Position numbers and translations under genes: made by a program. Shown here piece after piece: positions 27,587-41,660 of a stretch of 64,000 nt of DNA. Position 1 is the first letter of the stretch, and each line of letters opens with the position of its first letter. Where the stretch lies: contig CACOKN010000001.1 of assembly GCA_902627805.1 (NCBI GenBank), forward strand, positions 124,001 through 188,000. Reading direction: 5' to 3'. The notes beneath the pieces were generated by a model, which searched no databases, was not told the DNA's origin, and saw nothing but the letters and a program-made list of their open reading frames with translations. This DNA comes from an uncultured Pelagibacteraceae bacterium (GTDB taxonomy: Bacteria; Pseudomonadota; Alphaproteobacteria; Pelagibacterales; Pelagibacteraceae).

Positions 27587-27615
27587 ATATCTTCTAATAA
27601 ATTTTTACGAATTAC

Positions 27616-27798
27616 TTATGCTTTTTGTTGAGAGCAAACATCCTTTATTACTGGAACATTTGCACAATCATTGCATTTAGTTTGTTGAACTATGCAACCA
27701 TTGTCAAGAAGCTTTACATCAACGACTTTATCACACTTAGAACATATTGATGTAATTGTTAATCCGCATTTTTTACAACTATAGTTTTGTGTCTCCAT
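27616..27798 (-). CDS. Small Cys-rich (zinc-ribbon/metal-binding) protein
   Basis: 60 aa with eight Cys: CKKC, CSKC, C, CNDC, C; palindromic Fur-like box 45 nt upstream. Confidence 0.65.
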   Translation of the reverse strand: METQNYSCKKCGLTITSICSKCDKVVDVKLLDNGCIVQQTKCNDCANVPVIKDVCSQQKA

Positions 27799-27842
27799 AA
27801 CAAAACCTTAAACTTTTTGTAAAAATATACAATTAAATTGCG

Positions 27843-27863
27843 TGTGAATGATAATCATTCACA
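27843..27863. promoter_or_regulatory. Fur-box-like palindrome upstream of Cys-rich gene
   Basis: TGTGAATGATAATCATTCACA is a perfect 21-bp palindrome containing the GATAATCATT core of classical Fur boxes. Confidence 0.75.
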
Positions 27864-27885
27864 ATTTTTTTCCAATAAAAAAAAA

Positions 27886-29991
27886 TTAAAATCCACTTTC
27901 TCTAACAAAAAGTGAAAATATATTTTTAAAAAATTTAACGAAAGGACTATATCTGTTACCATCAATATGCACATAACCTGGTACTTCCCATTCGATTAAA
28001 TCATTTTTATCAATAGTAGAAAAGGTAACCTGATAATGAGCGGTCATTGGTCTATTTTCATATTCTTCATTTGAAGAATTTCTTGTAGCTATGGGTCCAT
28101 CAAATTGTGAAGATAAAGACAAATAAGGAAGAATAGAAATTGCAGATCTATCTAAATTCTTTGATACTAATTTTACTCTTGAGTGTTCTCCGTTAGATGG
28201 GATGAAAATTGCGTATTCGTTAATTTTAAATCGATCAATTTCTCCCTCTGTTAGATAGCCCACAACTGAACCTGGTCCATATTTACTTACTCCACCAAGA
28301 GGATCTAAATTACTAACCCATTGATTTACAGATAAGTTAGAAAAATCCTTAATTTTCCCATTTACAGGAGATTTAAGTAATAATTTGGATTTTGTTTTAC
28401 TAAGACCATCTAATTCATTTTGAAGAAATATTAATTGTTGTTGAAGTATCATATATTCACTGAGATTATTAGCCAACTTACTCAATCTATTAATTTTAGT
28501 TTTTGTAAGTTTTATTTTTCTTCTGACTTTATTAATTTGTAAATCTAAGTCAGGTGATGATAATTCAATTAATTTTTGTCCCTTTTTAACCTCTTGATTC
28601 TTTGATACAAAAATTTCTTTTACTTTAGCAGGATACGGTGAATAAATTTTTGTATATTGTTCAGAAACATATACTGCAGGAATTTTAATTGATGATTTCC
28701 ATGGAAAAAATAAGATTATAAATAAAATAAATAAAATTGAAAAAAGTCTTTTCGTTTTAAAGTTAAATTTAATTTGGGATTTAAGATTATACCAGTTTTT
28801 AGTTTCGGTAAAGATAGGTCTTAAAATGAACCAATAAATCTCAATTACAAATAAGATAATACCTAAAGTTTTGAATGCTAAGTGATAAACTAACAACGCA
28901 ATCCCTAAAAATATAAAAAATCGATAAACCCAAGTTAACCATGCGTAAGAAATAAAAGTCCATCGTCTTGTAGGATTTAAATCTTCAGGTGGTGGATGAT
29001 TAAAGCCAAATAAAATTTCTCGTAATTGCCATCTTGCAAGTGCAAATGATCTTGGTTGTAAATTTTCAGCTTTAAGCCAATCAGAAAAAACATAATAGCC
29101 ATCAAATCTCATAAAGGGACTAACATTGATTGCTAATGATGAAATCCAGCTTGTGGTAGCAATAAAAAAAGCAACACTTTTTAAGCCACCATCTGGAAGG
29201 ATAGCCCATAAAAAAGTTGAGATTAATGCAAGATGAAGTTCAGTTAAAATTCCTGCAAAATTAATTAACAATCTATCTTTGTGATCTCTTAGTCTCCAGG
29301 CATCAGAAGTATCAGTATATAAAAATGGAAAAAAAACGAGAAAAGCTATCCCAATCGAAGATACTCGACAACCAAAATATTTTGAGACAAATGCATGACC
29401 AAGTTCATGTAAAGATTTTACAAAAACCAATGTGATTAAATAAAGCATAAGTCCTTTGAAAGAAAAAAAATATAAAAATGTATTTTTAAAACTTTCAATT
29501 TGCTGAATTACCAGACAAATCCCTATGAAACCTAGTATGTAAATTAAATTTCTAACTTTTTTTGATCCAAGTATTTTTGCATATCTAAGTGTTTTACCAA
29601 GCCATTCATCAGGTTTTACTAAAGGTATTTTAAAAAAAAGATAACCATGAATTAAAAATAGTAACCAATTTTTTTTTTGAGCGTTTTTTTGTTTCAATAG
29701 AATATTATCAAATTGACCTCGCGGCTGAATAATTAAATTATTCAATTGTAAAAAATCAATAAATTTTTTTATTTCATCACCATCTGCTTCTATACCATCG
29801 CGATTAATTTTTTTTTCAAAAACTTTAATATCTTCACCCCCACTCCAGTTTTTGATTAATTTAAAAGCTGTCAGTCCAAGAGTAAAATATTTATTTCTTA
29901 AAGCATCATATAAGAGCCAAGCAGGAGAACCATCTTCCCTGCTGTTTCCTCTGAGTATTTCTAAATCTTCTCTTAAATATGGAATGATCAT
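27886..29991 (-). CDS. PqqD-like/M50 (site-2) metalloprotease/HlyD-like membrane fusion hybrid protein
   Basis: 701 aa; HELGH motif (KSLHELGHAFVSKYFG), NVSPFMRFDGYY second metal motif, multiple TMs, C-terminal lipoyl/HlyD-like (YSPYPAKVKEIFVSKNQEVKKGQKLIEL), N-terminal PqqD-like segment. Confidence 0.78.
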   Translation of the reverse strand: MIIPYLREDLEILRGNSREDGSPAWLLYDALRNKYFTLGLTAFKLIKNWSGGEDIKVFEKKINRDGIEADGDEIKKFIDFLQLNNLIIQPRGQFDNILLKQKNAQKKNWLLFLIHGYLFFKIPLVKPDEWLGKTLRYAKILGSKKVRNLIYILGFIGICLVIQQIESFKNTFLYFFSFKGLMLYLITLVFVKSLHELGHAFVSKYFGCRVSSIGIAFLVFFPFLYTDTSDAWRLRDHKDRLLINFAGILTELHLALISTFLWAILPDGGLKSVAFFIATTSWISSLAINVSPFMRFDGYYVFSDWLKAENLQPRSFALARWQLREILFGFNHPPPEDLNPTRRWTFISYAWLTWVYRFFIFLGIALLVYHLAFKTLGIILFVIEIYWFILRPIFTETKNWYNLKSQIKFNFKTKRLFSILFILFIILFFPWKSSIKIPAVYVSEQYTKIYSPYPAKVKEIFVSKNQEVKKGQKLIELSSPDLDLQINKVRRKIKLTKTKINRLSKLANNLSEYMILQQQLIFLQNELDGLSKTKSKLLLKSPVNGKIKDFSNLSVNQWVSNLDPLGGVSKYGPGSVVGYLTEGEIDRFKINEYAIFIPSNGEHSRVKLVSKNLDRSAISILPYLSLSSQFDGPIATRNSSNEEYENRPMTAHYQVTFSTIDKNDLIEWEVPGYVHIDGNRYSPFVKFFKNIFSLFVRESGF

Positions 29992-31325
29992 ATGCCGATT
30001 AATTGTCGAATAAATGTAATGGGTTTTCTAAATAAATAATAAAATAAAATAGTTCTATTTCCATAAACTTTAGCCGTTCCTCGTAAACCAATTCGTGGAG
30101 TATCCTTATTCCCCTCAAAACTTGATATTAACTTATATGAAAGAACTTCCTCGGGTGAAAGTTCTGGCTCATAAGTAGATCGTAAAATCTTACCTTTGTA
30201 AGAACTCATAGGATTTATGTCTAAAAAGATATTTGCATCAGCATTTTCGTTGATAACGATTGAGTCTTTTACTGGTAGCCATATAAGAAATTCAATGTTC
30301 GCAGGATCTGCAATAGTTAATATTTTTTCACCAACAGATACGGGTTTACCTTGCCAATCAGATTTTCTATCCACAATAACTACACCTTTCTTTTCAGCAT
30401 ATATTTTTGAATTTTTTAATTTTCTTTCTGCAGAACTTAATTCTACCCTTCTTAAATCAACTTGTGCCATAAGCTCAGCCAATTTTGATTTTTGTTCATT
30501 ATCGGTAAAAGACGATTGTCTTGTTCTTAGAAGTTCTTTTTCAGAAACTTGCAATGATTGTTTTGCAAGATTAAATTCATTTAATAAATCAATATCCTCT
30601 AATAAAACTAATAACTCACCAGGTTTTGTTTGATCATTATTATTAGCAACTATTTTTTTGACCACCCCATCAAATGGTGACGTAATTAAAAAAGGATTTT
30701 TTGCTACCACCTCAACTGGAGCAGTACTGGTCATTCGAACTGGAAAAAGAAATATTAATATAATTACCGAAATTGTAATCCAACGTTTTTTTCCAGTAAA
30801 ACTTTTTTTAAAAAAATCTCTAATTGAATAATTAATCAAAAATGTATTATAAGCATGACCATAAGTTCTTGATAAGTGTGATATTAACTCGTTTTCATTC
30901 TCAGAAAAAATTTCATTTCGAGCTAATAAAAGAAATCCTTGCAGACCTCTTTGAGGTGAAAAAATTGGTATGCGCAGTAAATATTGAGGAATATTTTTTG
31001 GTTTCTGTTTTTTTATTTTTTTTGAAAATTTATCTAAATCAACTTGCTCTATCTCTTTAAGATTTTGATTTGATTTATGATTAACAATACTCTCAACGAA
31101 CGTAATTAATGGTGCGGTTCTATCAACTGAGGCGATATCCGACACTGCCTCCACATGATATTTGTCTGTTGGGCTTTTCAGTAGCAAAAATGAAGTTGTG
31201 TAATTAATTATTTCCCTAGTTTCATTTACAACAAGAAAACTTAATTCGTCTTTACTTTTTGCCTCTCTAGTTTTTTTTTCTAGACTAATTAATCTTGCAA
31301 TCTTAATATTCTTATCTTGGCTCAA
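29988..31325 (-). CDS. GAF-domain HlyD-family membrane fusion protein
   Basis: 445 aa; N-terminal GAF-like region, TM (WITISVIILIFLFPV), HlyD/lipoyl domain (ITSPFDGVVKKIVANNNDQTKPGELLVLLED). Confidence 0.75.
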   Translation of the reverse strand: MSQDKNIKIARLISLEKKTREAKSKDELSFLVVNETREIINYTTSFLLLKSPTDKYHVEAVSDIASVDRTAPLITFVESIVNHKSNQNLKEIEQVDLDKFSKKIKKQKPKNIPQYLLRIPIFSPQRGLQGFLLLARNEIFSENENELISHLSRTYGHAYNTFLINYSIRDFFKKSFTGKKRWITISVIILIFLFPVRMTSTAPVEVVAKNPFLITSPFDGVVKKIVANNNDQTKPGELLVLLEDIDLLNEFNLAKQSLQVSEKELLRTRQSSFTDNEQKSKLAELMAQVDLRRVELSSAERKLKNSKIYAEKKGVVIVDRKSDWQGKPVSVGEKILTIADPANIEFLIWLPVKDSIVINENADANIFLDINPMSSYKGKILRSTYEPELSPEEVLSYKLISSFEGNKDTPRIGLRGTAKVYGNRTILFYYLFRKPITFIRQLIGI

Positions 31326-32062
31326 AACTTAACAATCCCACTCATTCCAGGAATTAAACTCTCATATTTCTCATTGAATTGAGCTTTTAATTCTATTGTT
31401 TGACTTGCAGCATCTACAGCTGCACCTAAGCTAATTATTTTTGCATTCAACTCATCTCCTGTCTCATCAATAATTATTTTGACTTCATGCCCTTTTTTTA
31501 ACCAGCTTAACCATTTACTTGGAACAACAACCGCAGCTTCTAAAAGACCATCACCAACTATATCCATTAATGGCTGTCTCTGCTCTATGCTTGTAAATAC
31601 ATTTGTATAAACATCCATTACTCTACCATCATAAGGTGCAATAATATTACATCTGTCGACATTAAGTTTAGCAATAGTTAATTCTGCTTCAGCTTTTTTA
31701 AGAGCTGACTCAGATAATTGATATTGCAACTCACCAATAGATCTCATATCTAAAAGTTCTTTATCATTCTTAAGTTGAACTTGAGCACTTTTATGATCAG
31801 CTTTAATTACTTCTAGTTGTGCATTGTGGAGTTTGCAGTCAAAACTAATTAGGATATCTCCTTTTTTAAAAGCATCTCCCATTAAGTAATTAATCTTTTC
31901 AACTCTAGCTGAAATTTCACTTGAAATAGAAACCTTTTCAGTGGCGGTTACTAAAGTTCTAGCTTCTCTAGTTTCTTCCTCAACCGAATTAGATGAGTCA
32001 TGACTATCAGCTTTAGCCAAATTAATTAGCACCAACAAAATTATAAAAACTAATTTTTTCAT
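31322..32062 (-). CDS. Periplasmic adaptor (HlyD/RND MFP family)
   Basis: 246 aa; signal peptide, SSEISARVEKINYLMGDAFKKGDILISFDC, IIAPYDGRVMDVYTNVFT. Confidence 0.82.
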   Translation of the reverse strand: MKKLVFIILLVLINLAKADSHDSSNSVEEETREARTLVTATEKVSISSEISARVEKINYLMGDAFKKGDILISFDCKLHNAQLEVIKADHKSAQVQLKNDKELLDMRSIGELQYQLSESALKKAEAELTIAKLNVDRCNIIAPYDGRVMDVYTNVFTSIEQRQPLMDIVGDGLLEAAVVVPSKWLSWLKKGHEVKIIIDETGDELNAKIISLGAAVDAASQTIELKAQFNEKYESLIPGMSGIVKF

Positions 32063-32083
32063 AATTGAAATTAAGGATATATA

Positions 32084-35000
32084 CTATAATCTATCTATTA
32101 ATTTAGAGCCATAATTATCCCATTCAGAATATTCTTTGGATAATTGGGATGATAATGATACAAATTTTGTTTCGTTATCTGAAATCTTTTTAGCATCTTC
32201 TGCATTTTCATTAACAAAATTTAATTTAACTTCTTTTACTGCTAATTCACCATTAGGTTTTTCAAAAATAACTTTTAAGTTAATAGATTCTACATTTTCA
32301 GGTGGCTTAGCGATTACTTCTCCTGTTTTTGAGTTATACTCTATCCATTCAGGAAGTTCTTGACCATTGTTTAAGAAAATTTTTAAATTTTGCCATGGTA
32401 GTTTTACTTCAAAATTATCTTCTACAATTTGACTTTTAAAATTCAAGAATTCATCTGGTTCAATAGTTTTTACTAAATCATCAAAAGATTCTGTATTATT
32501 TAGCACATCTGTTTTATTTGTATCAATTTTTCCATCTTCTTTTAAAGAGTTGATTTTAACTGATCCATCATTTTTAACTTCAAGTTTATTTACTTTAACT
32601 ATCTTTCTTGATTGTTTTAATATTTCTTTATCTTCAGCAATTTTTTTTGAGTCAATAACTACAGTTACTTGCTTCTTATTATTATCTACATCAACAGCAA
32701 TAATCTTAAACTCCACCATCTTCATACCTTTAGGAATATCAGTCTTTGTTTTCCCTGTTTTTGGATTTATCTTAATCCAATCTGGCAAGGCGCTTCCATC
32801 TTTCATTTCACCATAGTACTTTTGAACCTCTTTGCCCTCATCGTTAAATACTTTAAATTTTACTTTGAGTGCTTTATCTGAATGTTTTGCAATAATTTTA
32901 TCAACGTAAATATCTAAATCTTTATCTTTAAGTTCTAAAGAATTCGATTCAGCAACTAAGTCTACAAGTTTCAAGCCTTGATTAAATTCGGCTCTTTTAG
33001 CTAATTTAGATTTAGGTATTTTTAATTCTTTTCGTTCGAGTCTTTTTTCTCTTTTTAATTTTTTTAATTGTCTATCTTCATCTCGCTTTTGTCTTTTTTC
33101 CTCTCTTTTTTCTTTCTTAGGTTTTTTAACTTCATCCGGGTCTGGTTCACCTATGGCATCCCCATCTATACCAGTTATTGTAAAAGTTATTGTCCCAATA
33201 TCTATTGCTTTAGAACCAGCATTTGTTTCATCATCCATTACTTTATAAGAAAAAATATCAGTTGCGGTCTCACCTGCTCTTAAAGCAGTTGTTGCATCAT
33301 TACCTGTTACACTATAAGTGTAAGCACCTGCACTACCGATAGTCAAGGTACCATACGTACCTGAAACAGCACTACCCACATTTGAATTAGCTAATGTTGA
33401 TCCTTCAGCACCTGCACCAACTCCTCTAACTCCTAAAGCTGATGAGGCATCATCACTATCTGTATCATTTGTTAAAACATTTCCTGTAGCATCATCATCA
33501 CCCGCTGTAATACTACCTGTATCATTAACAGCAACTGGTGCAGCGTTTACAGAAATTGAAATTGTATATGTTACTGCCTGAACTGTTTCACCATCATAAG
33601 CTCTATAAGTGAAACTATCATCAGCCTCAGAATTTGCATCTGGAGTATATCTCAAATTAGTAATATCAGTTATTGTGTCATTGACTGAGGGTTCGGCTCC
33701 GTTATTTATTTTTGTTAATGTACCTGAAGATGGTAAAGATTTAATCTTAATACCAACATCATCATCTGGATCAGTATAGTTAGTAAAATCAGAGGCAGCA
33801 AAATCTTTTCTAATATTTAATGAAGTCCTAGCTCCATGAGTAGCATCTATATTATTTTCATTAATATAAACTGTTTCATTCCCTGCAGTAGGTGCATCAT
33901 TAGAACCTAATATTGTAAATGTAATTGTAGCAGTGTCTGAACCACTACCACCATCAGAAAGTGTATAATTAAATACGTCAGTTGCACTATCCCCAGTATC
34001 TAAAGCATTGGCTGCATCCTTGTTAGCAACATAAGTATAAGAACCATTAGCATTTAAAGTTAATTGACCATATGTTCCATCCAAAGCTTGTCCAACAGTT
34101 CCAGCTGTTCCACTCCCCTCCGTACCTCCAGTTCTTATCGCACTTATGGTCAATGAAGCATCAGCATCTGCATCACTGTCTGCGTGAGAGCTTGAGCTTG
34201 TATCAATCACATCTCCTGAATGTTCACCTGTTGCATCAAAAGATCCTGATACATTTGCATTGTCTCCGTTACTGACAGATAAAGTTCCACCCTCAACAAT
34301 TACACCAACATCATTTTGTGCAGTTGTTGCATCATTAATACCTGTAACTGTAATCGTTAAAGTTGCAGTGTCAGTAGATGTTCCGTCAGAAACAGTATAG
34401 GTAAAAACGTCTGTTACTGTATCTCCTGCATCTAATGCATCTGCAGCATCTTGATCAGCAACATAGGTATAAGTTCCGTCAGCACCTAAAGTTAAAGTTC
34501 CATAAGTTCCTGTAACAGTGGTACCACTGCTATTATAAGAACTACCAGATGACACTGCACTTGCAGAACCACCACTGGGTTGGATTTGTGTAATTGTAAA
34601 TGTAGATGTAGTGTCTAAATCATCAGCATCAGTGTCATCTGCAACTAGTAAACTTGAACCAGAGCTTTGAGTTATTGTTGCATCTTCATTTACGCTATCT
34701 GTATCATTTACCCCAACAATTGTGTCATTAATACCAACTATTGTAATTTCAATTACTGCTATATCTGTTGCTGAACCATCTGAAACTGTATAATTAAAAC
34801 TTTCAGTTACGACGTCTCCAGAATCTAGTGCATCAGTAACATCTTGATTTGCAACATAAGTATAAGAACCATTAGCATTTAAAGTTAATTGACCATAAGT
34901 TCCTGTCAAAGCTTGCCCTACAGTTCCAGCAGTTCCACTTCCTTCACTAGATCCTGTTCTTACTGCTGTAACAGTTAAAGAGTCACTGTTTGCATCCGTA

Positions 35001-38000
35001 TCATCACCTAAAACATCTCCATCATGTTCACCATGAACATCAATCAAATTAAATGGACTGACTAATTCGTATTCATGAACATCATCACTATTATAACCCA
35101 TCATAAACATTTTAGTTCCATGTTTATTGAATAAAAGACTGAAAGGTTCGGTATCAACATCAGTAGATCCATCATTTGGATCCTTTCTTATATTATATTC
35201 ACCGACATAAGTTCCGGTTGATACATCGTAGGCAGTTGATAATTTGTATTCTGTAATATCTTTACCTTGACCTCCCACAACAAACATTCTTGTTCCGTCA
35301 ATATTGAATTCTATATCTCTAGGCGAAGACTCTTTTGCAGATATATCTAAACGATTAGAATCTGAACGAGATGCTGTTGAAAGATCATATGCGGTTGAAA
35401 GATGAATTTCCTCAATGTTACCACCAGCAAAACCTGCTACAAATAATTTTGTTCCATCATTGTTAAATCTAATTCCACATGCCCTAGTATCTCCAGCTGC
35501 AAATTCTACTACACTACCAGTTTGCGTGCTAACATCATAAGCAGTTCCAAGTGTATATTGAAAAATTTTAGCCGCATCGCCACCACTTACATATAATTTT
35601 GTTCCATCGTTATTAAAAGTTAAACCAAATGGTTCATCTGTTTGGCTGCTAACATCTAACTTTTGAGCGTCACCCTGATAGGTTGCAGTTGAAACATCAT
35701 AAGCAGTAGACAAGTGATATTCTTTTATTGCATCACCATCATTTCCTCCATGAAACATTCTTGTGCCGTCATTATTAAAGGCTAAGCCCGCAGTATTTCC
35801 TTCACCTGACACAGCTGACATATCAAATACGTCATTTGCATCATAGGTAATTGCTGCAGTTGTAATACTATTTGCACTAGCTCCATCACTAACTGTAAGA
35901 GTGCCATCCTCATTTACAATCCCTGTGTTGTTTGCTGCAACAGGAGCAGAATTAACTGTTATGGTTAATGTTGCAGTGGTTGTTGCAGTACCGTCGTATA
36001 ATGTATAGGTAAATACATCAGTTCCTCCAGTGCTACCTGCTATATATTGATATGTTCCATCTGCACCGATTCTTAAAGTACCATAACTACCTGTTACAGA
36101 AGTATAACCCGAACTATAAGTAGTTCCAGGATTGACATCCGTCGCGCTACCACCAGCTGTAGTAGCTGTAATACTATATACACTTAAAGATGCATGAGCA
36201 TCTACATCAGTGTCATTATGTAAAACGTCTGAACTTCCATCTGTTACAGTTAAAGTTTGACTAGCTGCAACACTATTAGTATCGTTATTAGCAACTGGGT
36301 TATCATTGATACCTATTATAGTTATAGTAATAACTGCTATGTCTGTTCCACCATTTCCATCTGAAACAGTATAGTTAAAACTTTCAGTAACCATATCACC
36401 TGGGTCTAAAGCATCAGCAGCAGCAGTATTAGCTGCATAAGTGTAAGAACCATTTGCATTTAAAGTTAATTGACCATAGGTACCTGTCAAAGCTTGCCCC
36501 ACAGTTCCAGCTGTTCCACTTCCCTCTGATGATCCCAATCTGACTGATGAAACTGACAAAGTATCACCATCTTGGTCAGTGTCTTGACTATCTGCATCAT
36601 TGGTGGTGATTACATCTCCTGTATATATGCCCGAATAAGTACATAAACTAAAAGGTGATGTAAGTGCATATTCGTTTACTTCATCCCCACTATTTCCTAC
36701 AATAAACATCTTAGACCCATCATTATTAAATGCTATTCCAGATGGATTTACCTCTTGACTGCTTACTCCAAGAAAACATACATGGCTTGCTGTTGAAATA
36801 TCAAAACCAGTAGTTAATTTATATTCATCTACTCCATTACCACGTGTTCCAACTATGAACATTCTAGTACCATCAGTATTAAATTCTATACCAAATGGCT
36901 CATCATCATAATCATCAAGATCTAAAGATCGCACAAGATTTATTGTAGATGAAAGATCAAAACCTACTGAAAGCGAATATTCATATATAAAATCAGTATT
37001 ATTACCAGTGATGAACATTTTTGTACCATCGTTATTAAAATCAAGACCAAAAGGATTACCATCTTGACTAGAGACACTGTAAGTAGTCTCAGGTGTAGTA
37101 CCATTTGCAGTTGTTGTAATGTCAAAAGCTGTATTTAGTAAAAATTCTTTTACCCCAAAACTGCTTAGGGTAAACATTTTTTTTCCATCGCTACTAAACT
37201 TTACACTCATGGCATCACCACCAAAAGCAAATCTGTCTCTATAAGATGCTGTAGATACATCGAAGGCAGTAGTAAGTGTGTACTCGTTTATGTCATTACC
37301 AGTAGTTCCTGTGACATACATTTTTGTACCATCGTTATTAAAAGTTATACCCCTTGGAGCTGTATCTTCACTCGAAACATCTTTTGGACTTGAGTCATGT
37401 GTTATTGCAGATACACTTGATGGATTATCTCCATCATCGACAGTTAAAGTTGAATTTTCATTTACAGTTCCAGAATCATCTCGAGCAACTGGGTCCCTAT
37501 TACCTTGCGCTGCTGTAATTACACGAATGTAATCACCTTTATCACCATTCTTAGCTCCTAATCTTAATGTTGTTTTATTAGAACCAATTGATACCCAATC
37601 CCCACTTGTAGTTTGGTCAGAAGTACTATTTGCATAAAAAACAAAATCCTCAAAAGTTCTACCATTATATCCAGTATTCCCATGCGTTGGATAAGTTGCT
37701 CCTGATTTAGAAATATTATTATAAAAAATGGTATTTGAATTTTGCGTAAAGATACCATAGATCTCATTTGTAAATTCTATTTCACCAATGATACTTGTTC
37801 TATCACTAGTGCCATGATCATCATTTAAAAAAACTAAATAAGAATTTACTGCGAAATTCGCAGTATTTAGTGATACGTTTTGATTTCCATCATCATCGTA
37901 ATCTAAAACTAGTGAACCTGCATTACTTACATTCTCACTTTCAAGAGCAACAATAAAATCTTGTCCACTCGTTGAACGTTGTCCACTAGAATTTTGTGCT

Positions 38001-38776
38001 CTAGCTCTAAAATCTGTTGCACTTGGTTTTTCCTCTACATTTGAATTAATACTTGAAATACCATTTTGTAATAATGAGTGATCGTACTCAACAACTTTGA
38101 CATTTTGTGTTTCAACAATACCAATTTTTTTCTCTAATTCCCAGTCACCACCTTTACCAGTGACATCATCTGATGCCGCAATATCAGCTTTAGTAATTTC
38201 TGAAATTTTACTGATTAAAACTTTACCACCTTCTGTGCTTGCAACATTACATCCATAGAATAAAATATCTCCGTCTTCCGTCAAAGATTGACCTATCGAT
38301 CTCAACGTTTGGTTGTATGATTGAATGGTATCGTTTGAAAGTGTTGCATTACCGAATAAAATTTTTCCAGCACTACCATGACCAATTATATGTAATGAGG
38401 AAATTTCTTGATCATTTTTAAGAACTTTATCAATCTTTTTAAAACCATCCTCGCTAGATTGGATTAGATAAACTTCCGTATCTTTATTAAAGGCATTAAT
38501 CAAAGTTTGATAATCTTGTACCTGCGAGTCTATAAATACAACTTGTTTTCGATCGTTTCTTTTTTGATCTCTTGCCAATTGATCAAATGGAAGTTTTTGA
38601 GAATTATCATCAATTTTATGCTCTGAAAATTTTGATATTTTTTGAGTATTTTTATTTAATAATTTATCTTTACTTCTTTCATCTATTACATCTAGTGCTG
38701 TGGAAGCTCCAGCACCATCAAGCATGATTCTTTGTTCTAATGCTTCAATGAATATTTTTTTTTTATTATTCTTCAT
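32084..38776 (-). CDS. Giant multidomain surface/secreted protein (LEPR-XLL-like N-terminus, DUF4347, beta-propeller-like repeats, VCBS repeats, cadherin-like C-terminus)
   Basis: 2230 aa; ALEQRIMLDGAG near the N-terminus; DUF4347 motif HIIGHGSAGKILFG...DILFYGCNVAS...GGDWELE; repeated FNNDGTKMFxxG; repeated TYGxLTLxADGTYTYVA...SDGxxTDTATxTITVxGxNDA; repeated LPxWIxxNxKTG. Confidence 0.85.
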   Translation of the reverse strand: MKNNKKKIFIEALEQRIMLDGAGASTALDVIDERSKDKLLNKNTQKISKFSEHKIDDNSQKLPFDQLARDQKRNDRKQVVFIDSQVQDYQTLINAFNKDTEVYLIQSSEDGFKKIDKVLKNDQEISSLHIIGHGSAGKILFGNATLSNDTIQSYNQTLRSIGQSLTEDGDILFYGCNVASTEGGKVLISKISEITKADIAASDDVTGKGGDWELEKKIGIVETQNVKVVEYDHSLLQNGISSINSNVEEKPSATDFRARAQNSSGQRSTSGQDFIVALESENVSNAGSLVLDYDDDGNQNVSLNTANFAVNSYLVFLNDDHGTSDRTSIIGEIEFTNEIYGIFTQNSNTIFYNNISKSGATYPTHGNTGYNGRTFEDFVFYANSTSDQTTSGDWVSIGSNKTTLRLGAKNGDKGDYIRVITAAQGNRDPVARDDSGTVNENSTLTVDDGDNPSSVSAITHDSSPKDVSSEDTAPRGITFNNDGTKMYVTGTTGNDINEYTLTTAFDVSTASYRDRFAFGGDAMSVKFSSDGKKMFTLSSFGVKEFLLNTAFDITTTANGTTPETTYSVSSQDGNPFGLDFNNDGTKMFITGNNTDFIYEYSLSVGFDLSSTINLVRSLDLDDYDDEPFGIEFNTDGTRMFIVGTRGNGVDEYKLTTGFDISTASHVCFLGVSSQEVNPSGIAFNNDGSKMFIVGNSGDEVNEYALTSPFSLCTYSGIYTGDVITTNDADSQDTDQDGDTLSVSSVRLGSSEGSGTAGTVGQALTGTYGQLTLNANGSYTYAANTAAADALDPGDMVTESFNYTVSDGNGGTDIAVITITIIGINDNPVANNDTNSVAASQTLTVTDGSSDVLHNDTDVDAHASLSVYSITATTAGGSATDVNPGTTYSSGYTSVTGSYGTLRIGADGTYQYIAGSTGGTDVFTYTLYDGTATTTATLTITVNSAPVAANNTGIVNEDGTLTVSDGASANSITTAAITYDANDVFDMSAVSGEGNTAGLAFNNDGTRMFHGGNDGDAIKEYHLSTAYDVSTATYQGDAQKLDVSSQTDEPFGLTFNNDGTKLYVSGGDAAKIFQYTLGTAYDVSTQTGSVVEFAAGDTRACGIRFNNDGTKLFVAGFAGGNIEEIHLSTAYDLSTASRSDSNRLDISAKESSPRDIEFNIDGTRMFVVGGQGKDITEYKLSTAYDVSTGTYVGEYNIRKDPNDGSTDVDTEPFSLLFNKHGTKMFMMGYNSDDVHEYELVSPFNLIDVHGEHDGDVLGDDTDANSDSLTVTAVRTGSSEGSGTAGTVGQALTGTYGQLTLNANGSYTYVANQDVTDALDSGDVVTESFNYTVSDGSATDIAVIEITIVGINDTIVGVNDTDSVNEDATITQSSGSSLLVADDTDADDLDTTSTFTITQIQPSGGSASAVSSGSSYNSSGTTVTGTYGTLTLGADGTYTYVADQDAADALDAGDTVTDVFTYTVSDGTSTDTATLTITVTGINDATTAQNDVGVIVEGGTLSVSNGDNANVSGSFDATGEHSGDVIDTSSSSHADSDADADASLTISAIRTGGTEGSGTAGTVGQALDGTYGQLTLNANGSYTYVANKDAANALDTGDSATDVFNYTLSDGGSGSDTATITFTILGSNDAPTAGNETVYINENNIDATHGARTSLNIRKDFAASDFTNYTDPDDDVGIKIKSLPSSGTLTKINNGAEPSVNDTITDITNLRYTPDANSEADDSFTYRAYDGETVQAVTYTISISVNAAPVAVNDTGSITAGDDDATGNVLTNDTDSDDASSALGVRGVGAGAEGSTLANSNVGSAVSGTYGTLTIGSAGAYTYSVTGNDATTALRAGETATDIFSYKVMDDETNAGSKAIDIGTITFTITGIDGDAIGEPDPDEVKKPKKEKREEKRQKRDEDRQLKKLKREKRLERKELKIPKSKLAKRAEFNQGLKLVDLVAESNSLELKDKDLDIYVDKIIAKHSDKALKVKFKVFNDEGKEVQKYYGEMKDGSALPDWIKINPKTGKTKTDIPKGMKMVEFKIIAVDVDNNKKQVTVVIDSKKIAEDKEILKQSRKIVKVNKLEVKNDGSVKINSLKEDGKIDTNKTDVLNNTESFDDLVKTIEPDEFLNFKSQIVEDNFEVKLPWQNLKIFLNNGQELPEWIEYNSKTGEVIAKPPENVESINLKVIFEKPNGELAVKEVKLNFVNENAEDAKKISDNETKFVSLSSQLSKEYSEWDNYGSKLIDRL
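33160..36625 (-). repeat. VCBS-type internal tandem repeat region (interrupted by second propeller-like block)
   Basis: Near-identical DNA blocks around 34020-34120, 34855-34945 and 36435-36525 (ACCATTxGCATTTAAAGTTAATTGACCATA...CAAAGCTTGxCC.ACAGTTCCAGC.GTTCCACT), plus more diverged copies. Confidence 0.85.
35040..35850 (-). repeat. Second FNNDGTKMF beta-propeller-like repeat block
   Basis: Repeated LAFNNDGTRMFHGG / LTFNNDGTKLYVSG / IRFNNDGTKLFVAG / IEFNIDGTRMFVVG / LLFNKHGTKMFMMG at about 40-50 aa spacing. Confidence 0.75.
36630..37400 (-). repeat. First FNNDGTKMF beta-propeller-like repeat block
   Basis: Repeated ITFNNDGTKMYVTG / VKFSSDGKKMFTLS / LDFNNDGTKMFITG / IEFNTDGTRMFIVG / IAFNNDGSKMFIVG. 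Confidence 0.75.
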
Positions 38777-38940
38777 TCAAATAAATTATAAGTCATATAA
38801 GTCTAATCAAAAACACCTTGCTTCAAAAAGCACCTAATTAAATGTTAAAAAATAGACAAATTTAGTACCATAAAACTTAAAAACCCAAATTGAACATATA
38901 TTGATTTCAATTTAAAGTATATATTATTAACATTTCTAAA

Positions 38941-41472
38941 ATGCTTAATAAAACACTAATTTCGCTACTCGCCTTTTTAATCATATTTTCTTCGTGCGCG
39001 CGTACACCAAAAGAAATTAGTTTAAACGACTCTCAAGAAAGAGTTGATCAAGATATTTTGAAAATTGAACAAATCAAAAAACAAAATGAAACCTGGGAAG
39101 AAAATATTAAAATTGATCTTTATACAGCCATTGCCCTTGCTATTAAAAATAATAGGGAATTAAAGATAAAACAATTAGAGACAGGGATCGCTTATAGACA
39201 ATTAGATAAAGTCGAATTTGAAATGTTACCAGCAATAGCCGCTAATGCCGGTTATTCAGGTAGCGAAAGATACAACGCGAGTGCGAGCGCAACTGTGCCA
39301 AATACTGATTTAGCGGGATCAATTGGAACTTCTTTTTCAACTTCAAGAGAAAGAGATGTTAACAGTCAAGACATTGGTTTTACCTGGAATGCTTTAGACT
39401 TTGGTTTATCATATATTAGAGCAGGTCAAGAAGCTAATCGATATTTGATTACTGAAGAAATGGAAAGAAAGGCTGAACATAATATTGTAAGAGATGTAAT
39501 TAAAGCATATTGGAACACCATTTCAGCGGATAAATTAATAAAAAAATATGATCCTTTATTAGTTGAAGTTGATAAAGCTTTAAATGACTCACAAAAAATT
39601 GAGGAATTATTGTTAACAAAACCGATGGATGCACTTTTATATCAAAAAGAATTATTAGACATTCAACGAGCCCTTCAATCTCAAAAAGAAATATTTATAG
39701 ATGCAAGAATTCAACTTGCAGGATTAATGGGGTTATTGCCAAATCAAAAATTTACTATTGTTCCAACAGAGGATCCTCTTACTATTTTAGATATGAATTT
39801 AGATGGAATGGAAAAATATGCTTTAATTAACAGGCCCGAACTTAGAAAAAGTCACTATGATGAAAAAATATCTATTCAAGAAACAAAAGCGAGTATGTCT
39901 TCTTTATTACCAGGCTTAAATTTTAATGCAGCCTGGACACATTCATCTAATGATCATTTAATGAATAAAACAAATCTTGAATATGGATCCGTCATGGGGG
40001 CGAATTTATTAAACGTTTTTATGTATCCTAAGGTAAAAAGAATTAATGAAACTAATACGGAGGTAATAAAAGAAAAAAGATTAGCTTTATCTATGGCAGT
40101 ATTATCTCAAGTGCATCTAGCAAATATTGATTATTCTTTAGCTCTTGAGGAGTATGATACGGCAGAAAGATATTATCAAGTTTCAAAAAAAATCACAGAA
40201 CAAATTAAGAATGCTCAAAAAATTGCACGATTTGGAAATTTAGAACTTATAAGAGAGCAGGCAAGTTTATTAGTAGCTGAACTGAGATACGATATCGCTT
40301 ATTCTAAATTACAGCATGCAATTGGAAAAATTTACACTTCTGTTGGTCTTGATATTACAAGAGAAAATGTAAAAAATACAAATTTTAAAGACTATGCGTA
40401 TATTATCAAAAATAATTTTAAAACTTCTGGTAAAAGATATTATGCTAAAATTAGAAAACCTATTAAAGATCAAAATCCTATAGTTAAAAAAAATAATGAA
40501 GGTAGAACGAGCCAGTTCTCTTTCTCTGAAAAAACTTTTGATTTAGATGGTGAAGGTAGAACAATATATGATGCCTTATTAAGCAACGACAAACCGCTAC
40601 CAAGCTGGATCACATTTTTACCATCACAAAAAACATTTTTAGTAAATAATTTAGATAAAGATAATACAGAGGAACTAGAGATAAAAGTCATTGCTAAAAA
40701 TATTAATACTAGAATTGAAGATAAGTTTACTTTAATGGTTGATCCCGAACTAAGGGCTACAAGGTTAGAAAATGAGAAGAGGCTTAAAGAACAAAGAAAA
40801 TTAGCTAAAAAAAGAAAACAAGAAGAGATTGAAAGACTTAAGGCTGAAAAAATCTTAGAGGAGAAAAAAGCTAAAGAAAAAGAAGCCTTATTAGCAAGAC
40901 AAAAAGTAGAAGAAACTCTTAAGCAAGAAAAAGAAAAAATATTATTAGAAAAAAAACAAGAAGAAGAATTATTAGCTAAACGGAAAGCTGAAGAACAAAG
41001 AATTATAGAACAACAAAGAGCAGAAGAATTGTTAGCTGAACAAAAAAAATTGGCAGAGGAGCAAAAAAGAGAGGAATTATTAGCTATACAAAAAGCAGAA
41101 GAATTGAGAGTTGAACAAACTGAAAAAATGAAAGAACTTTTAATGGCTCAAAGAAAGCAAATATATTTGCAACTTCCAGAAAATGCTACAGAGGTGCAAT
41201 TTGTAAATACTAATACAAATAAGAGCAATTTGGGTGAAAATTTAATTAATGAATTAAAAAATATAGAGAATAAAATAAACGATGTAATGCTTAATTTAGA
41301 TTTGGACAAGAGATTAGATCTAACAAAAAAAATTGTCCAAGACGTTTTTAAATCAAGTACAGCTACAAAGGAAATTGATCCAAAATATGAAACTTTAAAC
41401 TTACAAATAGTTAATCAAAGAAAATTGCTTGAAGAAATGTTAGACTATTCAAATAAATATACTAGTTATTAA
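38941..41472 (+). CDS. TolC-family outer-membrane protein with C-terminal cadherin-like domain and charged coiled coil
   Basis: 843 aa; lipoprotein-like start (IIFSSCAR), OEP helices (IALAIKNNRELKIKQLE), PLPSWITFLPSQKTFLVNN...DKFTLMVDP domain, then a long KKRKQEEIERLKAEKILEEKK coiled coil. Confidence 0.82.
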   Translation: MLNKTLISLLAFLIIFSSCARTPKEISLNDSQERVDQDILKIEQIKKQNETWEENIKIDLYTAIALAIKNNRELKIKQLETGIAYRQLDKVEFEMLPAIAANAGYSGSERYNASASATVPNTDLAGSIGTSFSTSRERDVNSQDIGFTWNALDFGLSYIRAGQEANRYLITEEMERKAEHNIVRDVIKAYWNTISADKLIKKYDPLLVEVDKALNDSQKIEELLLTKPMDALLYQKELLDIQRALQSQKEIFIDARIQLAGLMGLLPNQKFTIVPTEDPLTILDMNLDGMEKYALINRPELRKSHYDEKISIQETKASMSSLLPGLNFNAAWTHSSNDHLMNKTNLEYGSVMGANLLNVFMYPKVKRINETNTEVIKEKRLALSMAVLSQVHLANIDYSLALEEYDTAERYYQVSKKITEQIKNAQKIARFGNLELIREQASLLVAELRYDIAYSKLQHAIGKIYTSVGLDITRENVKNTNFKDYAYIIKNNFKTSGKRYYAKIRKPIKDQNPIVKKNNEGRTSQFSFSEKTFDLDGEGRTIYDALLSNDKPLPSWITFLPSQKTFLVNNLDKDNTEELEIKVIAKNINTRIEDKFTLMVDPELRATRLENEKRLKEQRKLAKKRKQEEIERLKAEKILEEKKAKEKEALLARQKVEETLKQEKEKILLEKKQEEELLAKRKAEEQRIIEQQRAEELLAEQKKLAEEQKREELLAIQKAEELRVEQTEKMKELLMAQRKQIYLQLPENATEVQFVNTNTNKSNLGENLINELKNIENKINDVMLNLDLDKRLDLTKKIVQDVFKSSTATKEIDPKYETLNLQIVNQRKLLEEMLDYSNKYTSY

Positions 41473-41473
41473 A

Positions 41474-41659
41474 ATGCCAAAATCAAATACCAAAGCTTTA
41501 AGTTTTAAAAGAACACTTAATCTTAATTCTAGTTCAAATCGAATCAATGGAAATATATTTATAAAAAGAAAAACTTTAACTTTAAAAACTCCAAAAACTA
41601 TTAAAGTCAAAGTTGGAAAAAAAATTACTGGAAAAATTTCTTTAAAAAAAGATAAATAA
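41474..41659 (+). CDS. Small highly basic hypothetical protein
   Basis: 61 aa, starts immediately after the TolC-like stop; very Lys-rich (MPKSNTKALSFKRTLNLNSSSNRING...). Confidence 0.45.
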   Translation: MPKSNTKALSFKRTLNLNSSSNRINGNIFIKRKTLTLKTPKTIKVKVGKKITGKISLKKDK

Positions 41660-41660
41660 T

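Follow-up and report, generated by a model that had tools for sequence, protein, structure and literature searches.

A SecA-less M50–HlyD cassette in Pelagibacteraceae as a candidate system for exporting and maturing its own giant surface-type protein

A gene neighbourhood in which M50–HlyD, GAF–HlyD and HlyD genes stand with a secondary SecA_DEAD ATPase and without an ABC transporter was described bioinformatically by Kamneva, Poudel and Ward in 2015, who proposed that the SecA_DEAD ATPase drives export and that the M50 protein is the pore (PMC4452313). This paper was the only close precedent found in the open-licence literature, and another description may exist. The locus analysed here is a SecA-less cassette of five genes in a stretch of 64,000 nt (the window) from a member of the Pelagibacteraceae (SAR11) with a genome of 1.14 Mb (the host draft, G000). 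The cassette is read here as a self-contained system that would export and mature its own giant surface protein; judging from the genes, we give this reading a probability of about two in three. The initial annotation had called such a system undescribed, which does not hold for the homologous SecA_DEAD locus of 2015; what appears to be new is the SecA-less variant, a clade with its own TolC-like OEP gene, together with its link to the LEPR-XLL tag and the role proposed for that tag.

The cassette and its main parts are as follows.

27587..41660, no strand assigned: entire inserted cassette, lying between photolyase and yjbQ; the flanking genes are 11–20 bp apart in closed relatives
27886..29991, minus strand: gene 1, PqqD-like + M50 + HlyD fusion protein (M50–HlyD), 701 residues; eight hydrophobic segments followed by a periplasmic HlyD part; predicted inner-membrane core
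29988..31325, minus strand: gene 2, GAF–HlyD protein, 445 residues; TTG start, one transmembrane helix; GAF-type N-terminal part predicted to be cytoplasmic, HlyD part periplasmic
31322..32062, minus strand: gene 3, HlyD/RND-type periplasmic adaptor, 246 residues; Sec-type signal peptide (hydrophobic N-terminus); TIGR01730 matched above its cut-off
32084..38776, minus strand: giant surface-type protein, 2230 residues; cadherin/VCBS repeats, no Sec signal
38711..38740, minus strand: LEPR tag LEQRIMLDGA of the giant (residues 13–22); proposed export leader
38941..41472, plus strand: TolC-like OEP, 843 residues; lipobox-like N-terminus, C-terminal extension specific to SAR11

All five open reading frames (ORFs) of the compact locus were recovered as annotated, at 27886–41472; the start of the span was right, and its end, initially placed at 41659, lies beyond the OEP stop (41472) and reaches the edge of yjbQ. 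Successive genes of the set 1–3 share 4 nt, as had been noted. A spacer of 21 nt separates the HlyD gene from the giant gene upstream of it, and the OEP gene runs divergently beyond a gap of 164 bp. Scans for promoters and terminators in the locus gave no signal above shuffles. In a profile scan gene 1 matched Peptidase_M50 (8e-10) and Biotin_lipoyl_2/HlyD, genes 2 and 3 both matched HlyD_3, the giant matched DUF4347 (7e-51), Cadherin_4 (8e-54), VCBS (2e-59) and the LEPR-8K model (17.6 bits, cut-off 17), and the TolC-like gene matched the OEP domain (2e-28).

The cassette behaves as a unit. Photolyase and yjbQ are separated by the short gap listed above in the closed cassette-free relatives G003, G020 and G005, whereas 14 kb of cassette lie between them in the window; this clean empty site indicates that the five genes come and go together. 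The same cassette occurs with different flanking genes in family f2. Gene 1 is present in 47 of the 297 genomes of the order (Pelagibacterales), and a full-length M50–HlyD match was obtained by profile search in about 70 of 398 Pseudomonadota genomes. Of the 40 loci studied, 38 have GAF–HlyD next to M50–HlyD and 37 have the HlyD gene, with an OEP at no fewer than 26 and a giant ORF at no fewer than 29; the last two counts are minimum values, many loci being cut by contig or fetch ends. DUF4347 is found in 64 of the 70 cassette genomes and in 23 of the 328 others (Fisher p 6e-47, phylogeny not corrected). Among the named carriers are Azospirillum, Niveispirillum, Magnetospirillum (pMSR-1), Kosakonia, Variovorax and E. 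coli plasmids. The operon order is identical in plasmid records of E. coli, Kosakonia, Azospirillum, Niveispirillum and Variovorax, and of 5426 complete E. coli genomes 22 contain the machine genes; database records of carriers label each gene generically and do not present them as one system. Searched across genomes, the gene set was met with again in dozens of genera, far beyond chance. That the unit is dedicated to the adjacent giant, as initially proposed, is supported by the clean insertion, by the co-occurrence with DUF4347 and by a matching N-terminal tag.

This tag was surveyed in ORFs of at least 250 residues in the non-SAR11 loci. The LEPR pattern was found within the first 110 residues of 41 of 1030 ORFs, 40 of them module-associated giants and one an unrelated chance match; two cassette DUF4347 giants outside the strict pattern carry a near form (LEQRIAFDAAG and LERRIAFDAAA). 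The form LExRxxxD[GA]A is present in 34 of 34 tags of clade A, the SecA-less type of the window, and in none of the eight tags of clade B, the SecA_DEAD-associated type, with a p value (8e-9) that overstates independence, some of the A sequences being closely related. The giant of an E. coli plasmid starts RFALESRQLFDGAALAETA, which is an A-form tag. DUF4347 giants of genomes without an A cassette served as a control (14 loci, 13 with the N-terminus resolved; one genome, G529, has a B cassette elsewhere), and none of the 13 has the tag. Among these untagged giants Sec-like signals are present in L288, L290, L291 and L292, and ABC exporters adjoin L294–L296. How a giant begins thus agrees with the exporter that it probably uses. 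At the four loci with Sec-like signals DUF4347 is apparently exported by another route, without the cassette. On the best reading of these patterns LEPR would be an export leader recognized by the PqqD-like domain of gene 1 and possibly cut by its M50 peptidase; no such role for LEPR-XLL was found in the searchable literature.

The same division is seen in the machinery. Weaker, partial profile matches to M50–HlyD proved to be of the B type, and in most of 20 such loci a SecA_DEAD ORF of ∼670 residues adjoins the M50–HlyD gene. A tree of 69 M50–HlyD proteins separates A from B by a branch of 1.61 with an SH-aLRT value of 100; it was built by a quick method with a midpoint root and has one very long branch. 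In genomes that contain A as well as B, it is the B-type M50 that has the second SecA next to it. Four B-type loci (L224, L226, L227 and L231) have no SecA nearby, so that even in B the motor is not always present, and these are possibly further motorless lineages.

The initial annotation had also reported that no type I ABC ATPase is present. Classical type I secretion through an unlinked ABC exporter, with the cassette contributing only adaptors and TolC, would explain the HlyD and TolC-like parts, and ABC exporters other than MsbA do occur in several SAR11 and large-genome carriers and adjoin some untagged DUF4347 giants. At the 40 other loci, however, no type I ABC exporter was found, the sole ABC genes being oligopeptide-importer ATPases in L179. 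The draft genome G000 gave no match at all to ABC_membrane (PF00664), which is probably an assembly gap because MsbA is present in the sister G110 (98% identical); each of the 32 relatives searched has one or more ABC exporters. The closed SAR11 carrier G011 has a single ABC_membrane protein, MsbA, which non-carriers have too, and type I secretion is thereby already contradicted in SAR11. A hidden ABC exporter was sought elsewhere in the host genome and its relatives, and nothing except MsbA was consistently present. The reported absence thus extends over the locus, the host genome and the other loci, and export by an unlinked type I exporter is very unlikely.

One canonical SecA (PF07517) was found in G000, G011, G015 and the other SAR11 carriers of the genus of the window. 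Secondary SecA proteins were looked for in these carriers and none was found; the extra weak PF07517 matches resemble other helicases. It could be that the giant is carried across the inner membrane by the housekeeping SecA/SecYEG, LEPR serving as an unusual signal, and that the cassette only processes it (M50) and exports it from the periplasm via HlyD–TolC. In the sister clade a SecA-type ATPase accompanies the same proteins (PMC4452313), and every SAR11 carrier searched has the canonical SecA that such a route would use. The tag region, however, lacks a hydrophobic core (its best 12-mer reaches 1.1, compared with 2.9–3.4 in the signal peptides of OEP and HlyD), and tagged and Sec-signalled DUF4347 giants form separate groups, which makes passage through SecYEG a doubtful explanation.

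Two features of gene 1 bear on the reading of the tag and its cleavage.

29395..29409, minus strand: HELGH zinc site of the M50 peptidase (residues 195–199)
29707..29991, minus strand: N-terminal PqqD-like domain of the RiPP-recognition type (residues 1–95); candidate leader reader, modelled with low confidence at residues 1–38

The HExxH residues and Asp297 are invariant across 27 diverse M50–HlyD homologues, which argues that proteolysis matters. An AlphaFold2 model of gene 1 (37 SAR11 homologues, mean pLDDT 72) gave Foldseek matches to the adaptors EmrA, MacA and MexA. PqqD-type domains bind leader peptides in the pathways of ribosomally synthesized and post-translationally modified peptides (RiPPs), which suggests that the PqqD-like domain of M50–HlyD likewise reads a leader. 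PqqD hidden Markov models (HMMs) run directly on the A-clade N-termini gave no match. Pfam PqqD (PF05402) is matched above cut-off at the N-terminus of the B-type M50 proteins, to which the A-type N-terminus is homologous (hhalign, 94 columns, probability 97.2, E 3e-11); a comparison of the A-clade N-terminus with canonical PqqD by hhalign gave nothing and was weak, only one canonical sequence being used. The PqqD-like call of the initial annotation is supported indirectly, through the sister N-termini, with the HMMs silent in the clade of the window, and this points to a PqqD-like domain that has diverged past direct detection.

The GAF domain called in gene 2 is not visible in the protein of the window by itself; among 25 homologues Pfam GAF matches 8 (E up to 0.01). 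Signalling is a frequent role of GAF and M50 families, and some loci have histidine kinases or GGDEF proteins in their vicinity, so a signalling or stress device might be envisaged in which GAF senses, M50 carries out regulated intramembrane proteolysis, HlyD is a scaffold and the giant is a mere neighbour. It is hard to reconcile with partners as constant as HlyD, usually TolC and also a tagged giant, with a tag form that tracks the M50 clade and with a cassette that contains no anti-sigma or regulator target; we regard it as highly improbable. In L167 (2150–4803) a DISM histidine kinase and a response regulator follow M50–HlyD with 4-nt overlaps, an arrangement that points to regulation.

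In the proposed export and maturation mechanism the giant would be made without a Sec signal and with the N-terminal LEPR tag LExRxxxD[GA]A, and the PqqD-like domain of M50–HlyD would recognize this tag on the cytoplasmic side. The M50 site would probably cut the tag or a neighbouring segment, in or at the inner membrane. M50–HlyD, GAF–HlyD and the soluble HlyD would form an adaptor assembly joined to the dedicated TolC-like lipoprotein, and the unfolded giant chain would be passed through this assembly over both membranes. Outside, the giant would fold, its cadherin/VCBS repeats probably on Ca2+, and the DUF4347 domain may process it further. The cassette has no ATPase, whereas the sister clade would use its secondary SecA_DEAD ATPase at the export step; energy would most likely be drawn from the proton motive force and folding outside, or else from housekeeping SecA or another ATPase. 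In its strongest form, which we put forward tentatively, this would be motorless secretion across two membranes without a dedicated NTPase, with LEPR read by the PqqD-like domain and cut by a conduit-forming intramembrane metalloprotease, the proton motive force and outside folding as drive, and LEPR-XLL as the general address tag of two sister machines, one driven by SecA_DEAD and one motorless.

The mechanism has a foundation in the gene set and its anatomy, conservation, unit behaviour and spread, in the clade split, in the pairing of tag and machine and in the absence of a type I ABC exporter and a secondary SecA from the closed carrier. Several points weigh against it. Secretion, tag reading, cleavage, conduit and energy source are all inferred; no energy source was found among the cassette genes; the PqqD-like homology in clade A is a transitive profile match, and recognition and cleavage of LEPR are deduced from co-variation, which sequence kinship can inflate. 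Not all of the loci studied have an adjacent OEP gene, other secretion genes lie near some cassettes in large genomes (a type II secretion system in Variovorax), and a conserved C-terminal tail of the SAR11 giants could hold the export signal instead.

Further features of the giant and the OEP are listed here.

38099..38542, minus strand: DUF4347 domain of the giant; invariant His133 and Cys176, a caspase-like dyad by pattern
32087..32179, minus strand: conserved tail at the C-terminal end of the giant (PLxxQL...DxYG...), with two Ig-like modules ahead of it
40522..40800, plus strand: Ig-like module in the OEP extension, resembling the C-terminal modules of the giant (hhalign probability 91, E 9e-7)

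His133 and Cys176 of DUF4347 are invariant in 20 sequences. The modelled core (pLDDT about 75–93) had the type VI secretion Hcp3–Tce1 complex 9qpe as its top fold match (E 3e-4) and matched caspases weakly (E about 0.01–0.03); the invariant residues and the weak caspase match make self-processing of the giant possible. The tail motif PLxxQL...DxYG is conserved in SAR11 giants. Domain scans of the giant gave no match to RTX or type I secretion C-terminal models, and autotransporter (type V) features were likewise not found, there being neither a hydrophobic signal nor a barrel domain in the Pfam scan. In SAR11 the Ig-like module is common to the OEP extension (40522–40800) and the C-terminus of the giant (32084–32800), where it perhaps serves docking or anchoring. 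Outsized giants were encountered elsewhere: a 48.7-kb gene lies beside the cassette on the Variovorax paradoxus plasmid CP063167.1 (L286), and at L253 (genome G302) DUF4347 stands in an open frame of 14,920 residues.

When the flanks were clustered in search of a further conserved neighbour gene, the clusters were largely shadow ORFs and unrelated genes of the two-component or GGDEF kind. In L184 genes for a DUF2126 amidoligase/transglutaminase and for ATP-grasp/alpha-E proteins adjoin the cassette, and L186, from the same genus, has similar-sized ORFs at the matching place. An 'autotransporter adhesin' of coastal SAR11 is described as standing always beside type IV pilus or type II genes (PMC12636525); these neighbours are unlike those of the present locus, and the cassette was not equated with that adhesin.

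A testable role is offered here for the orphan LEPR-XLL tag, and genes that have been annotated piecemeal as 'HlyD', 'site-2 protease' and 'TolC' gain a shared one. The question is posed of how a protein of 2,000 to 16,000 residues crosses two membranes without a dedicated motor, and the presence of the cassette in culturable bacteria makes it accessible to genetics; non-pathogenic carriers of this kind include Magnetospirillum gryphiswaldense MSR-1, Azospirillum brasilense and Cupriavidus metallidurans CH34. Streamlined SAR11 genomes (1.1–1.4 Mb) retain 14 kb of cassette for a giant surface-type protein.

With type I systems (HlyBD–TolC, and LapBCE with LapA-type giants) the cassette shares HlyD adaptors, a TolC-like OEP and a giant passenger of the cadherin/VCBS type; it differs in having no ABC exporter (PF00664 + ABC_tran), in its M50 and PqqD-like parts and in the N-terminal tag that its giant has in place of a recognized C-terminal signal. 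The M50 domain of gene 1 is related to the daptide M50 protease NF041824 (136.5 bits over 287 residues, below the equivalog cut-off of 300) and the logic of a PqqD-like reader is common to both, but the substrate in RiPP maturation and export is a small peptide, whereas here it would be a giant protein and HlyD is fused to M50. The giant of the window is barely above the cut-off of the LEPR-XLL model (NF012209), whose tag has no assigned role in the sources searched and for which that of an export leader is proposed here. The closest relative is the SecA_DEAD locus of 2015, with which the cassette shares M50 + HlyD, GAF + HlyD/biotin-lipoyl, HlyD and sometimes an OEP, again without an ABC transporter. 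Loci of that type have a PqqD domain at the M50 N-terminus, and LEPR giants adjoin them where the start of the giant is covered, although the main text of the 2015 paper names neither LEPR nor a giant substrate (PMC4452313). They differ in the SecA_DEAD ATPase next door, a longer GAF–HlyD (about 610 residues) and another form of LEPR, while the cassette of the window belongs to a separate clade that has no SecA_DEAD ATPase and usually brings its own OEP and DUF4347 giant.

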